Of a DNA stretch of 36,084 nt, positions 4,802 to 35,530 are shown in pieces (positions within the stretch are counted from its first letter, which is position 1; each line of letters begins with the position of its first letter). Below the pieces are notes generated by a model. It was not told the origin of the DNA. It made no database searches and was given only the letters and a program-made list of their open reading frames with translations. The DNA is from Leptolyngbyaceae cyanobacterium T60_A2020_046 (GTDB lineage: Bacteria > Cyanobacteriota > Cyanobacteriia > Phormidesmidales > Phormidesmidaceae). The position numbers were made by a program, and so were the translations under genes. Location: assembly GCA_015272155.1 (NCBI GenBank), contig JACYME010000231.1, positions 1 to 36,084 of the forward strand, given 5' to 3'.

Positions 4802-5014
4802 CTCAGTCAGAATATCGTTCTGAGGAAAACCGGATAAGTCGCAATAACCGACCCTGGGGGAAGGGGGGGTAGGGGGTGTGAGGGTGTGAGGGATTCAATT
4901 GATTCACACTCATCCACCTACCCCTCCATTCATCCACGCCCCAACGCGATCGCTTCCCCCAAGAATGGAGCTTCGTAGAATAGAAGGGTTCCGGTTTGAA
5001 TGCGGGGGTGGGCT

Positions 5015-5644
5015 ATGGCGACGGTGCTGCGATCGCTGAGTTATCGCTATCAGTGGCTCTATGACGGGATTTCGCGCGCGGCAGCCCTCACCGTGGGGGG
5101 CGAGCGACGGTTTCGGCACTTGGCCCTCGACGGTTTGACGATCCATCGCGAAACCGACATTTTGGATCTGTGCTGCGGTAGTGGTCAGACGACGCAGTTT
5201 TTGGTGGAACTGAGTGATCGCGTAGTAGGGCTAGATGCGTCGCCGCGATCGATCCAGCGGGCCAGCCACAACGTTCCCAATGCCAAGTTTGTAGAAGGGT
5301 GGGCCGAGGACTTGCCCTTTTCGGCAGACAGCTTTGATGTGGTGCACACCAGCGCCGCCATGCACGAAATGAAGCCTGATCAGCGCCAGCAGATTTTTCA
5401 AGAAGCGCTGCGGGTGCTGCGCCCTGGCGGCACCTTTGCCCTGGTGGACTTTCATCGCCCTACGAACCCGATCTTTTGGCCGGGGCTGGCGGCCTTTCTC
5501 TGGCTGTTTGAAACCGAAACTGCGTGGCAAATGCTCCAGGCTGATTTGGGGCAGGATTTGCAGGCGATCGGGTTTCACGTCCCGCGATCGCGCCATTACG
5601 CGGGCGGCAGCCTTCAGGTCATCCAAGCCCAGAAGCCCGCCTAG
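5015..5644 (+). CDS. class I SAM-dependent methyltransferase (UbiE/Methyltransf_11 type)
   Basis: A 209-residue cytoplasmic methyltransferase. SAM-binding motif I, ILDLCCGSGQT, lies near the N-terminus; the acidic residue of motif II is in VVGLDASP; and motif IV/post-I is SADSFDVVHTSAAMHEM. The segment EALRVLRPGGTFALVDFHRP is typical of the Methyltransf_11 family. The N-terminal SYRYQWLYDGISRAAALTVGG is shared, as far as I recall, with cyanobacterial homologues of unknown substrate. I place the start at the ATG at 5015, which has a GGGGGTG-like ribosome binding site; the in-frame ATG at 5000 would add five residues and has no site. Substrate unknown; a quinone or other small molecule is possible. 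Confidence 0.85.
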   Translation: MATVLRSLSYRYQWLYDGISRAAALTVGGERRFRHLALDGLTIHRETDILDLCCGSGQTTQFLVELSDRVVGLDASPRSIQRASHNVPNAKFVEGWAEDLPFSADSFDVVHTSAAMHEMKPDQRQQIFQEALRVLRPGGTFALVDFHRPTNPIFWPGLAAFLWLFETETAWQMLQADLGQDLQAIGFHVPRSRHYAGGSLQVIQAQKPA

Positions 5645-5667: not shown

Positions 5668-5834
5668 GGCGTTGCTGACTCCCAGGATAAATTACCCACC
5701 CTGCGGGAAGCCGCAAAGCGTCTACATCCCAAACCCTTCTCTCCAGTGGAGAAGGGCTTAAGTCAGGTTCCCTCACCCTCCGGCAGAGGACGCAGGAGCG
5801 GGCTGCAAGGTTTGTCTGTACACACAAACTTGGG
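5668..5834 (+). repeat. dispersed intergenic repeat, family 1, copy A
   Basis: Similar in order and sequence to 15791-15912. Shared blocks are GGCGTTGCTGA-TCCCAGGAT-AATTACCC, AAACCCTTCTC-CCAG, GAGAAGGGCTTAA, TTCCCTC and GTACACACA-CTTGG. This copy carries about 40 extra bases between the first two blocks. It contains a hairpin, CCCTTCTC (5734-5741) with GAGAAGGG (5749-5756). It is non-coding; its function is unknown. Confidence 0.75.
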
Positions 5835-5876
5835 GATTAACGTCAGTTCGGATTAAGCCATTGGCCTGTATTTTTC

Positions 5877-6012
5877 CCTCCTAGGGGGTGTCCGTAGGAC
5901 GGGGTGGGGGAAACCCAGCACTCACCCACCCCTGGCCCCTCCGAGGCGGGGAAATCCTCTGGCAGGGAATCGGTCTTGCGCAATGGACGACTTAGCCCGA
6001 ACTCAGGTCACC
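5877..6012 (+). repeat. dispersed intergenic repeat, family 2, copy A
   Basis: Closely similar to the reverse complement of 34654-34795. Shared blocks include GTGTCCG-AGGAC-GGGTGGG, ACCCACCCCTG-CCCCTCCGAGG, the 20-base exact run ATCGGTCTTGCGCAATGGAC, and CCCGAAC-CAGGT. It lies about 40 bases after family 1 copy A, so the two elements form one repeat-rich block between the methyltransferase and the YqaA gene. Confidence 0.8.
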
Positions 6013-6311
6013 TAGAACTCTATCGCTCTGGGCGAGGGGAGATAATTCACCGTTACAAAGAAACCCGATTCATGGCTCCTAGCCTCTAGCTGGAAGCTGT
6101 GGTGGCGGTGCTGCTGTCTGGAAATCCAGGGTAAGCCGGCGCAATTCCAAAGAAGTTCTAAAGGCGATCGCGCTGTCCCCTGCCCAAAAATCGCCATTCG
6201 GGGCTGCATGGCTCCCAACTCCGGGAAATTTCCGCGTTCATGGCGAATGCGTAGGAGTTTGCTAGGGTAGAGGCGATTCTTTACAGTTCGCAATATACGG
6301 TGCGCAACCCC
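6013..6311. other. intergenic leader region before the YqaA-family gene
   Basis: About 300 bases without a credible gene. It contains one HIP1 site near 6170 and AT-richer sequence (TTTACAGTTCGCAATATACGG) just before the next start, where a promoter could lie, but I cannot define -35/-10 boxes with confidence. Confidence 0.4.
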
Positions 6312-6893
6312 ATGCTGAAGCAATCCTACGCAACCCTGGCAAACTGGAGCCAAAAGCCCTACGGCGAGCACCTGCTCTTTTGGTTTGCTCTGGCAGAATC
6401 TTGCGTGATTCCAGTGCCTGCGGATGTGCTGCTGTTGACGCTGTGTGCCGGGGCTCCCCAGCGATCGCTGCGCCTAGCCTTGATTTGCGGCGTTGGCTCC
6501 GTGGTGGGTGGGCTGGTGGGCTATGGCATTGGCCACTACGCCTTTGACTCCGTGGGCAGCCTGTTGCTCCGCACCTATGACCCGGAGCTCAGCACCTTTC
6601 ATCGGGTCGAAGGTATCTATGAGCAGTGGGGGTTTTGGGGCGTGTTGATGGCGGCGGTGACACCGATTCCCTACAAGATCTTTACCCTGGCATCGGGGGT
6701 GTTTCACTTTGACCTGGGGCAGTTTATGCTGGCCTCGGTGATTGGCCGCAATGCGCGGTTTTTGCTGGTTGGTGGGCTCATGGCCTATGGCGGCGATCGC
6801 GTCCAGCGCTGGGCTAGCGAGTCGTCACACCAGTTGGGTTGGATCTTGCTGGCCATTACCCTGATTGGACTTTATGCATTCACGCTGCTCTAG
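6312..6893 (+). CDS. YqaA/DedA-superfamily (VTT domain) membrane protein
   Basis: A 193-residue integral membrane protein with four to five hydrophobic segments. The sequence has the features of the SNARE-associated/VTT (DedA, YqaA) superfamily: an early AESCVIPVPADVLLL re-entrant-type helix, glycine-rich membrane segments (VVGGLVGYGIGHY), and the conserved AAVTPIPYKIFTLASG loop, whose Pro and Lys are typical of YqaA proteins. The superfamily is linked to lipid scrambling or transport in the cytoplasmic membrane, but this subfamily's substrate is unknown. I use the ATG at 6312; a GTG at 6300 in the same frame would add four residues. The next gene, also a membrane protein, starts 38 bases after the stop, so the two are probably co-transcribed. 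Confidence 0.85.
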   Translation: MLKQSYATLANWSQKPYGEHLLFWFALAESCVIPVPADVLLLTLCAGAPQRSLRLALICGVGSVVGGLVGYGIGHYAFDSVGSLLLRTYDPELSTFHRVEGIYEQWGFWGVLMAAVTPIPYKIFTLASGVFHFDLGQFMLASVIGRNARFLLVGGLMAYGGDRVQRWASESSHQLGWILLAITLIGLYAFTLL

Positions 6894-33368: not shown

Positions 33369-34658
33369 TTGACGGCTGAGGCGCACCAGGGATACGCCAT
33401 CGGTGTAGATTTTGGCACCTCCGGGGTGCGGGCGATCGCGGTGGATCAGTCCGGCGCGATCGCGGCCCAGAGTCGCGCCGCCTACGCCGCAGAGGGGGCA
33501 GAATCCCTCGCAGCGCAGTGGCAAGCCGCCCTCGCCACCGTGCTGCTCGCCTTGCCCGCACCCCTGCGCGCCTCGGTGCAAGACATCGCCATCAACGGCA
33601 CTTCGGCGACGGTGCTGTTGTGCGATCGCGGCGGCATTCCCCTCGTCGAACCCCTGCGCTACGACGACGGACGTGCGATCGCCCAGGGTGAGGCATTGCG
33701 CGCGATCGCTCCAGGGGGCAGCCCCGTCCTCAGCCCCACCTCCAGTCTTGCCAAGCTGTTGTGGTGGCGCGACACCCTGCCGCCAGCCACCTGGCAACGG
33801 GCCGCAGTGCTGCTGCACCAAGCCGACTGGCTCGCCTATCAGCTCCACGGACGGCTGGGCATTAGTGACTATCACAACGCCCTCAAGCTCGGCTACGACG
33901 TGGGCTCGCTCGCCTATCCCGACTGGTTGCAACCCTTGGAAGTCGCGTCGCGGTTGCCGCAGGTGCTGGCTCCGGGGGCAGCGATCGCGCCCATCACCGC
34001 CGCCGCTGCCCAGCGCTACGGCCTGCCCCCCACCTGCATCATCCATGCAGGCACCACCGACAGCATCGCGGCCTTTCTCGCCAGCGGTGCTACCCAACCC
34101 GGCGAAGCCGTCACCTCCCTGGGCTCGACGCTGGTGCTCAAACTGCTGAGCACCACCCGGGTAGATGACAGTCGCTACGGTATTTATAGCCATCGATTGG
34201 GCGATCGCTGGCTGGTGGGCGGCGCATCCAACACCGGGGGCGCAGTGTTGCAGCAGTTTTTTTCGACGGATGATTTGGTGCGGCTCAGCCGAGCAATGCA
34301 ACCCGATCAGCCCACCGGGCTCGACTACTACCCCCTCTGCCGTCCCGGCGAGCGGTTCCCCATCGCCGACCCTCACCTACAACCCCGGCTCACGCCGCGC
34401 CCCGCCGATCCGGCGCAGTTTTTGCAAGGTTTGTTGGAAGGCATAGCCCGCATTGAGGCCCAGGGCTACGCCCACCTGCAAACCCTAGGAGCCACGCCCC
34501 TCAGCCGCGTGTGGACGGCGGGCGGCGGCGCTCAAAATACCGCCTGGACAAGCATTCGTCAGCGACTGCTGGGGGTGCCTGTGCAGCCCGCCCCTGAGAC
34601 GGAAGCCGCAGTGGGGACGGCCCGATTAGCGCTGCGATCGCGCCATCGTTCTTCCTAA
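33369..34658 (+). CDS. FGGY-family sugar kinase, probable D-ribulose kinase
   Basis: A 429-residue FGGY carbohydrate kinase. The N-terminal phosphate-1 motif is [15 protein letters not shown]; the mid-region has [13 protein letters not shown] and the catalytic-type [13 protein letters not shown]. The ATP-site region is [31 protein letters not shown] and the C-terminal [13 protein letters not shown] is typical. The length is shorter than xylulokinase (about 480-500), and the pattern fits the cyanobacterial/plant SePSK/XK1 group, shown in one cyanobacterium to phosphorylate D-ribulose. The start is TTG at 33369; AGGAGG lies 12 bases upstream. It probably shares a transcript with ychF. Its stop lies at the edge of a family 2 repeat. 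Confidence 0.85.
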   Translation: [429 protein letters not shown]

Positions 34659-34795
34659 CCTGGGTTCGGGATCAGTCGTCCATTGCGCAAGACCGATCCG
34701 CTGCCGCTGGGGTTCCTCTCCTCGGAGGGGGCAGGGGTGGGTTTGCCGATGGGGTTCACCCACCCTGTCCTGCGGACACTCCTCCCAAGGAGGGG
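34654..34795 (-). repeat. dispersed intergenic repeat, family 2, copy B
   Basis: Reverse-complement copy of 5877-6012, including the 20-base run ATCGGTCTTGCGCAATGGAC read on the minus strand. It fills the junction between the convergent sugar kinase and lipase genes. Both stop codons lie within it or at its edge: the kinase TAA at its right-hand edge as read on the minus strand, and the lipase TGA inside it at 34756-34758. Confidence 0.8.
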
Positions 34796-35409
34796 AAAGT
34801 CGCTGACGTTCTCGATGCGACGGGCTGAGCTAGGGCCGCCGCTACCGCCGCCAGGCAGCGATCGTCCCGCAGCATCAGCGGATGCGCCAACACTGGAAAC
34901 TGCGCCTCGTGGCCGATGCCGAGGCGAGAGCTGCTCGCGGGCAAAATCATCAGATCGTAGGGCGTCCACAGGGACGTGATCTGCACCGAGGCCAGGTCGG
35001 TTTTGAGGGTGCGGTTCAGATCAGCCAAGAAGGCGCTATTCAGGCACATGTGCTGAATGCCGGGAGCATTGCGCCAGCGGGCCATCCAGGTGCCCTGGTG
35101 GGGCGATGAAATCGTGATGCAGCGCTGGACCTGGCGATCGCCCCCAAGACGCTGGAGATAGTAGCGGCTGACGATGCCGCCCATGCTAAAGGCGACGATA
35201 TCAAAGGGCGCATCGGGGCCAAACTGTTGTGCAGCTAGGTGTTGAACCTGCTGCGCGAGATCATCCAGGCCCGCGCTGCCATCGTTGGGCGTGAGGTCGA
35301 TGCCGTGGGTCACCCAGCCGCGATCGCGCAAATATCGCGCCATTTTGCCAAACACGGCCTGGGTATCATGGATGCCGTGAACGAGAAGAACCGGATTTTT
35401 CGCAGTCAT
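34756..35409 (-). CDS. alpha/beta hydrolase, lipase-like
   Basis: A 217-residue soluble alpha/beta hydrolase. It begins MTAKNPVLLVHGIHDTQAVF with the oxyanion HG motif. The nucleophile elbow is AFSMGG, a GxSxG variant with Ala in first position; it is followed by ISSPHQGTWMARW, typical of triacylglycerol lipase-like hydrolases. A later Asp (LWTPYDLMILPASSS) and His (AHPLML) are plausible triad members. There is no signal peptide. I use the ATG at 35409; a GTG at 35424 would add five residues. The last 12 residues (PSLGGVSAGQGG) and the stop come from the family 2 repeat, so the original C-terminus may have been replaced. Confidence 0.85.
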   Translation of the reverse strand: MTAKNPVLLVHGIHDTQAVFGKMARYLRDRGWVTHGIDLTPNDGSAGLDDLAQQVQHLAAQQFGPDAPFDIVAFSMGGIVSRYYLQRLGGDRQVQRCITISSPHQGTWMARWRNAPGIQHMCLNSAFLADLNRTLKTDLASVQITSLWTPYDLMILPASSSRLGIGHEAQFPVLAHPLMLRDDRCLAAVAAALAQPVASRTSATFPSLGGVSAGQGG

Positions 35410-35530
35410 CACATCAAGCGCCACCGTTCAAGGGGGCCGCCCTAGGGGAATTGACTTCAGCGTAGTGTGCCTGCTCCATCCCTACGAAACCACCGAAGAC
35501 AGTCTGTGGGTTGGCCCCTTGGGGGTGCGG

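Follow-up and report, generated by a model that had tools for sequence, protein, structure and literature searches.

A hairpin-cored MITE with IS982-type ends dispersed in the genome of a Leptolyngbyaceae cyanobacterium

The inverted repeat pair in the 36,084-nucleotide stretch of DNA analysed here (the window) very probably consists of two copies of a MITE derived from IS982, mobilised by an IS982 transposase, carrying a captured hairpin core and now orphaned in its host genome. We assign the element to IS982 because IS982-family elements in related genomes carry the same ends and produce target duplications of 7-8 bp. This places a previously unexplained repeat among the mobile elements and names the enzyme likely to have moved it.

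The dispersed element and its ends

The original prediction placed the pair at 5877-6012 and 34654-34795. The pair is real, with 95 nt aligning ungapped at 82% complementarity, 28,629 nt apart and in opposite orientation; it extends over about 140 bp at 80% when gaps are allowed, and is by a wide margin the strongest of 19 inverted pairs in the window, the runner-up covering 35 nt at 71%. Its boundaries require slight adjustment, as copy 1 occupies 5840-6008 and copy 2 occupies 34658-34798 in the alignment, or extends to 34809 if a retained AACGTCAG is counted as its left tip.

Copy 1 (5840..6008, plus strand) is a full-length MITE of 169 bp, delimited from repeat to repeat in the genome-wide alignment. 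Comparison with the ends of other copies and of IS982 elements identifies a left IS982-type terminal inverted repeat, ACGTCAGTTCGGATTAAG (5840..5857, plus strand), and a right one, CTTAGCCCGAACTCAGGT (5991..6008, plus strand). Its neighbours are a methyltransferase gene (5000-5644, plus strand) and a gene for a VTT-domain membrane protein (6300-6893, plus strand), and no ORF of at least 90 amino acids lies inside 5840-6008. Directly upstream, window positions 5720-5800 hold a different hairpin repeat-like stretch (CCCTTCTCTCCAGTGGAGAAGGG...), and a similar motif is seen at locus L073.

Two copies proved far too low a count. In the host genome (G000; a draft of 4.2 Mb in 250 contigs), the query 5830-6020 gave 35 matches at E<=1, and a consensus query gave 33 at E<=0.001; since two of the 33 belong to a single place, about 32 places remain. 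Full-length copies of about 170 bp are found at 18 of these (169-181 bp in the 18 uninterrupted copies). When 30 matched places were aligned with 60 nt of flanking sequence, homology began at ACGTCAGTTCGGGTTAAG and stopped at CTTAACCCGAACTCAGGT, with abrupt edges and unrelated flanks; these two sequences are 18-bp terminal inverted repeats with differences at few positions.

Twenty copies retain both ends: the 18 of full length, one with a nested insertion (C66) and one with an internal deletion (C55). Ten of them are flanked by an exact target duplication of 6-9 bp, which abuts both ends exactly in eight cases; with mismatched flanks (1000 repetitions) the mean was 0.7 and the maximum 4 of 20 copies. 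The duplications mostly have T first and A last, and the targets end mostly in TA or CA. The remaining ten copies have no duplication of at least 6 bp, which counts against the MITE reading, as does the lack of a visible duplication at both window copies, of which copy 2 is damaged.

The element is short (under about 300 bp), lacks a transposase gene, and has both the terminal inverted repeats and the target-site duplications expected of a MITE. Of the two suggestions made, a small non-autonomous mobile element is borne out and displaces an uncharacterised interspersed repeat: the element has relatives in other genera and occupies about 32 places in the host genome, its ends are defined, and target-site duplications flank ten of its copies. 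The proposed search of the host genome and its relatives returned many copies, defined ends and copies in relatives, rather than two isolated copies lacking all of these.

Both window copies had been described as intergenic, which holds for copy 1 but not for copy 2, a left-damaged MITE (34658..34809, minus strand; alignable part 34658-34798) that sits between two convergent ORFs and overlaps the 3′ ends of both. Its left end is mostly lost, a further point against the MITE reading. The sequence AACGTCAG is kept at 34803-34810, which suggests that it is the surviving left tip of the copy; between it and the alignable part, the left end has lost about 24 nt. The alpha/beta-hydrolase ORF (34756-35424, minus strand; Pfam) has its stop at 34756-34758 within the MITE, and its last 17 codons (34759..34809, minus strand) are MITE-encoded; in relatives, the alignment of homologues stops at query residues 192-211 of 222 (matches in 11 of 19 genomes, including the host genome). 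On the other side, the TAA stop of an FGGY-kinase ORF (33369-34658, plus strand; Pfam) is formed across the MITE end (TA/A; 34656..34658, plus strand), its last base being the first base of the element. The same border stop also ends open frames of at least 150 codons at L008, L013 and L022 among the 24 copies examined.

IS982 as the source of the ends

IS982 was suspected because the copies start with AC and have variable duplications. The MITE is short and non-coding, starts with AC and has duplications of variable length, all of which agrees with IS982 features in the available text of PMC7335449 and with the Cardinium IS982 MITE in the available text of PMC9769881. The IS982 transposase (PF13612) is present in 29 of 59 relatives, and a scan of 30 PF13612 loci for the MITE end, allowing up to 5 mismatches, gave at least one end-like match at 17 loci and none or a doubtful one at 13. 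Nine IS982 loci were read end to end; these elements are 928-984 bp long, except for one 402-bp remnant (L100), and six have duplications of 7-8 bp while three have none. In seven of the nine, the end on the upstream side of the transposase reads GGGATAAG and the one on its downstream side GGGTTAAG (L098 lacks this polarity, the remnant L100 has it). The MITE shares its ends with IS982-family elements. A search of genome contigs for the pattern GACTTANCCCGAACTCAGGT gave 22 stretches, three of which (L116, L128 and L133) show similarity to IS982 transposase.

The host genome also holds a trace of such an element. Several of its MITE copies have a right 18 nt identical to the end of the IS982 element L088. 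In addition, a 63-bp IS982 tail lies at C113:12147-12209, with 92% identity to positions 902-964 of L088. The IS982 elements (PMC7335449, in the text available; L084, L088, L089, L091, L092 and L112) have the same AC-starting terminal repeats and variable duplications as the MITE, the duplications being 7-8 bp in the local IS982 examples compared with 6-9 bp in the MITE; unlike the MITE, they are autonomous, about 965 bp long, and encode a transposase of about 300 codons.

The statement that no transposase is associated with the repeats is true locally and, for IS982, across the whole draft genome: PF13612 gave no match in the host genome, a 250-contig draft that may miss repeats, and this counts against the MITE reading. 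The lack of a parental transposase in the same genome bears on present activity, not on descent. As no IS982 transposase was found, only the 63-bp tail, the family looks orphaned in the host genome and has probably lost its activity. Given this empty result in the 250-contig draft, mobilisation of the MITE by an IS982 transposase stands as an inference.

We propose that an IS982 transposase acting in trans would have bound the 18-bp ends and cut the unit of about 170 bp, which would then have inserted at targets whose last bases are mostly TA or CA and produced duplications of 6-9 bp. The GC-rich hairpin core, an independent interspersed repeat of cyanobacteria, would have been captured by the IS982 ends. 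With subsequent loss of the transposase gene from the host genome, the present copies would be relics subject to decay, truncation and invasion by other small elements.

Several candidate movers were considered and set aside. To look for an autonomous partner, the host genome was searched for the 13-nt inner end, allowing one mismatch, which gave 45 places; those read outside the known copies (C113, C165, C84, C83 and C239) contain nothing more than the IS982 tail, further short stretches resembling the end, or unrelated sequence. The right 65 nt of the element has an outside match in only one of 388 genomes besides the host genome (G171), and that match consists of a single 22-nt end, neither a second end nor a transposase being seen there. 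A tyrosine-recombinase-like fragment beside C1:13328 was rejected as the mover because the ORF lists at three interrupted copies, read by eye, contain no such gene, and because the duplications and ends are those of IS982.

MITEs with IS982 ends have already been published. MITECca01 and MITECca02 of Cardinium cOegib derive from ISCca4, of the IS982 family; as far as the available text of PMC9769881 describes them, they and the MITE reported here are short and transposase-less, with IS982-family ends, many copies, mostly intergenic positions and lineage-specific amplification. The Cardinium elements are about 240 bp long, with 169 copies and an intact parent, whereas ours is about 170 bp long, at about 32 places, with no parent found, and differs from them in that text in its interior, a palindromic repeat that is widespread and has no relation to the IS. 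As far as our limited searches show, a palindromic core shared by IS982 MITEs is new; five end and core strings were not found in the literature searched (mostly open papers), and we do not claim absence from print. Nezha and other cyanobacterial MITEs are likewise small non-autonomous elements, to which the present MITE can be likened by description.

The palindromic core across cyanobacteria

The middle of the element, about 85 bp, has no match in the IS982 elements. In copy 1 it contains a palindromic multi-hairpin core at approximately 5872..5952 (plus strand), common to bare repeats in other cyanobacteria, whose chain of hairpins consists of CCCCTCC/GGAGGGG, GTCC/GGAC, GGGGTGGGT/ACCCACCCC and then a second CCCCTCC/GGAGGGG. 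Within the same family, 31 of 57 genomes contain the core. When the query was a core taken from a different genus, the search detected it in 57 of the 388 class genomes, spanning ten families.

Sixty copies of the core were fetched from relatives, a subset chosen from the listed matches. By a strict end motif, IS982-type ends flank the core on both sides in 17 of the 60 and on one side in another 11, compared with 3 of 3000 shuffled sequences. The both-ended copies, 160-193 bp long, are spread unevenly over the genera (12/27 in g2, 3/10 in g8, 1/1 in g5, 1/21 in g12 and 0/1 in g3); 11 of these 17 show a duplication of at least 5 bp, where the control gave a mean of 1.4 and a maximum of 6. The end variant TACGGG occurs in g8 copies and one copy in G200, at both ends in four of them, and also at both ends of the IS982 element L091. 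Two copies in G328 (L189 and L196) resemble the host-genome element between end and core as well. The same hairpin repeat is bare in some genera and enclosed in transposon ends in others, and we infer capture of the core rather than loss of ends. The host-genome copies are reversed in end polarity relative to most relatives' copies; an argument for repeated independent capture from this polarity is weakened by L201, which suggests that the letter distinguishing the two ends can switch within a single subfamily. In some relatives the core forms clusters or near-regular arrays (G007:C1:371291-375525 and G188:C1:1446184-1447440), and along part of the array in G188 the units are spaced at 111 bp.

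Among host-genome copies covariation is weak, with an RNAalifold covariation term of 0 and two-sided change in 5 of 43 pairs (one alignment row was duplicated). A set across genera, 58 script-delimited cores of 71 tried (11 from the host genome and 60 from relatives), shows pairing in 93.7% of cells over the three helices tested. Two-sided changes in this set number 36 cells, compared with 11.2 in shuffles, and exceed all 500 shuffles; a single pair in the second stem accounts for 32 of the 36 (T-A 25, C-G 24, G-C 8), probably through few events.

These properties recall the REP/BIME palindromic repeats of the GTAG and CGTC superfamilies, to which the core can be likened, by the description in the available text of PMC3733652, as a GC-rich multi-hairpin interspersed repeat that is partly tandem or in half units in some relatives. 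A repeat of this kind with its own route of spread, such as a Y1/RAYT transposase, and with merely incidental IS982-like ends would account for the 20 of 21 g12 copies that are bare, for the reach of the core across the class and for its conserved stems. The host-genome copies, however, carry IS982 ends: each complete core there is tied to at least one, and the duplications abut these ends and not the core. We therefore consider this explanation improbable; the end duplications refute it for the host-genome copies, although for the bare core in other genomes it may be correct. Less credible still is the view that the repeat, not itself mobile, is a structured non-coding RNA or a terminator spread by segmental duplication. 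This view would fit the RNA fold of copy 1, which is stabler than shuffles (z -2.36, 3/200 as good; z -1.98 as single-stranded DNA), and the orientation of neighbouring ORFs, called mechanically (at least 100 codons, longest first): among the 20 of 24 copies with called neighbours on both sides, 12 lie between convergent, 8 between co-directional and none between divergent ORFs. Against it, Rfam gave no match in the window at the gathering threshold, with only far-below-threshold matches for copy 1, and transposition is marked by the target duplications and by defined ends set in flanking sequence that is unrelated between copies.

As an IS982-derived MITE, the element could still play a side role where transcripts end, and the orientation counts, taken on these 20 copies alone, hint that its copies avoid promoter regions. 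A wider scheme, which we offer tentatively and consider rather less likely than its opposite, is that the core is an ancient independent repeat whose hairpins are under selection, that IS982 ends of two or more variants (TTCGGG and TACGGG) recruited it more than once, and that the partnership spreads hairpins to the 3′ ends of genes. These observations raise the questions of whether REP-like repeats spread by being taken up between the ends of ordinary insertion sequences, and whether the hairpin helps the element or the host.

Other small elements

Some MITE copies are associated with other repeats. MITE halves at L026 and L027 (left), L028 and L029 (right), and also L030, are fused to a larger element that sits in the core hairpin and has inverted repeats of about 110 bp starting CTGTAGGGGTTTGGTC; reading by eye shows what looks like the C-terminus of a tyrosine recombinase beside L028. 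In Chryseobacterium genomes, a repeat ending GACTTATCCCGAACTCAGGT with a common inner sequence is present in multiple copies (L113-L115, L117-L120, L122, L123, L126, L127, L129, L131, L132 and L134); the fetched stretches show no similarity to IS982 transposase, and the repeat may be a further family of IS982 MITEs. A second small element, about 90 bp long (AAGTCC...GGACTT, with a query core of 82 bp), has 22 matches in the host genome at 84-100% identity and is inserted in three MITE copies, L075 (C66), L076 (C46) and L078 (C41), with further loci at L139-L150. Its flanks look like a 3-bp TNA duplication, and its high identity suggests that it spread recently.
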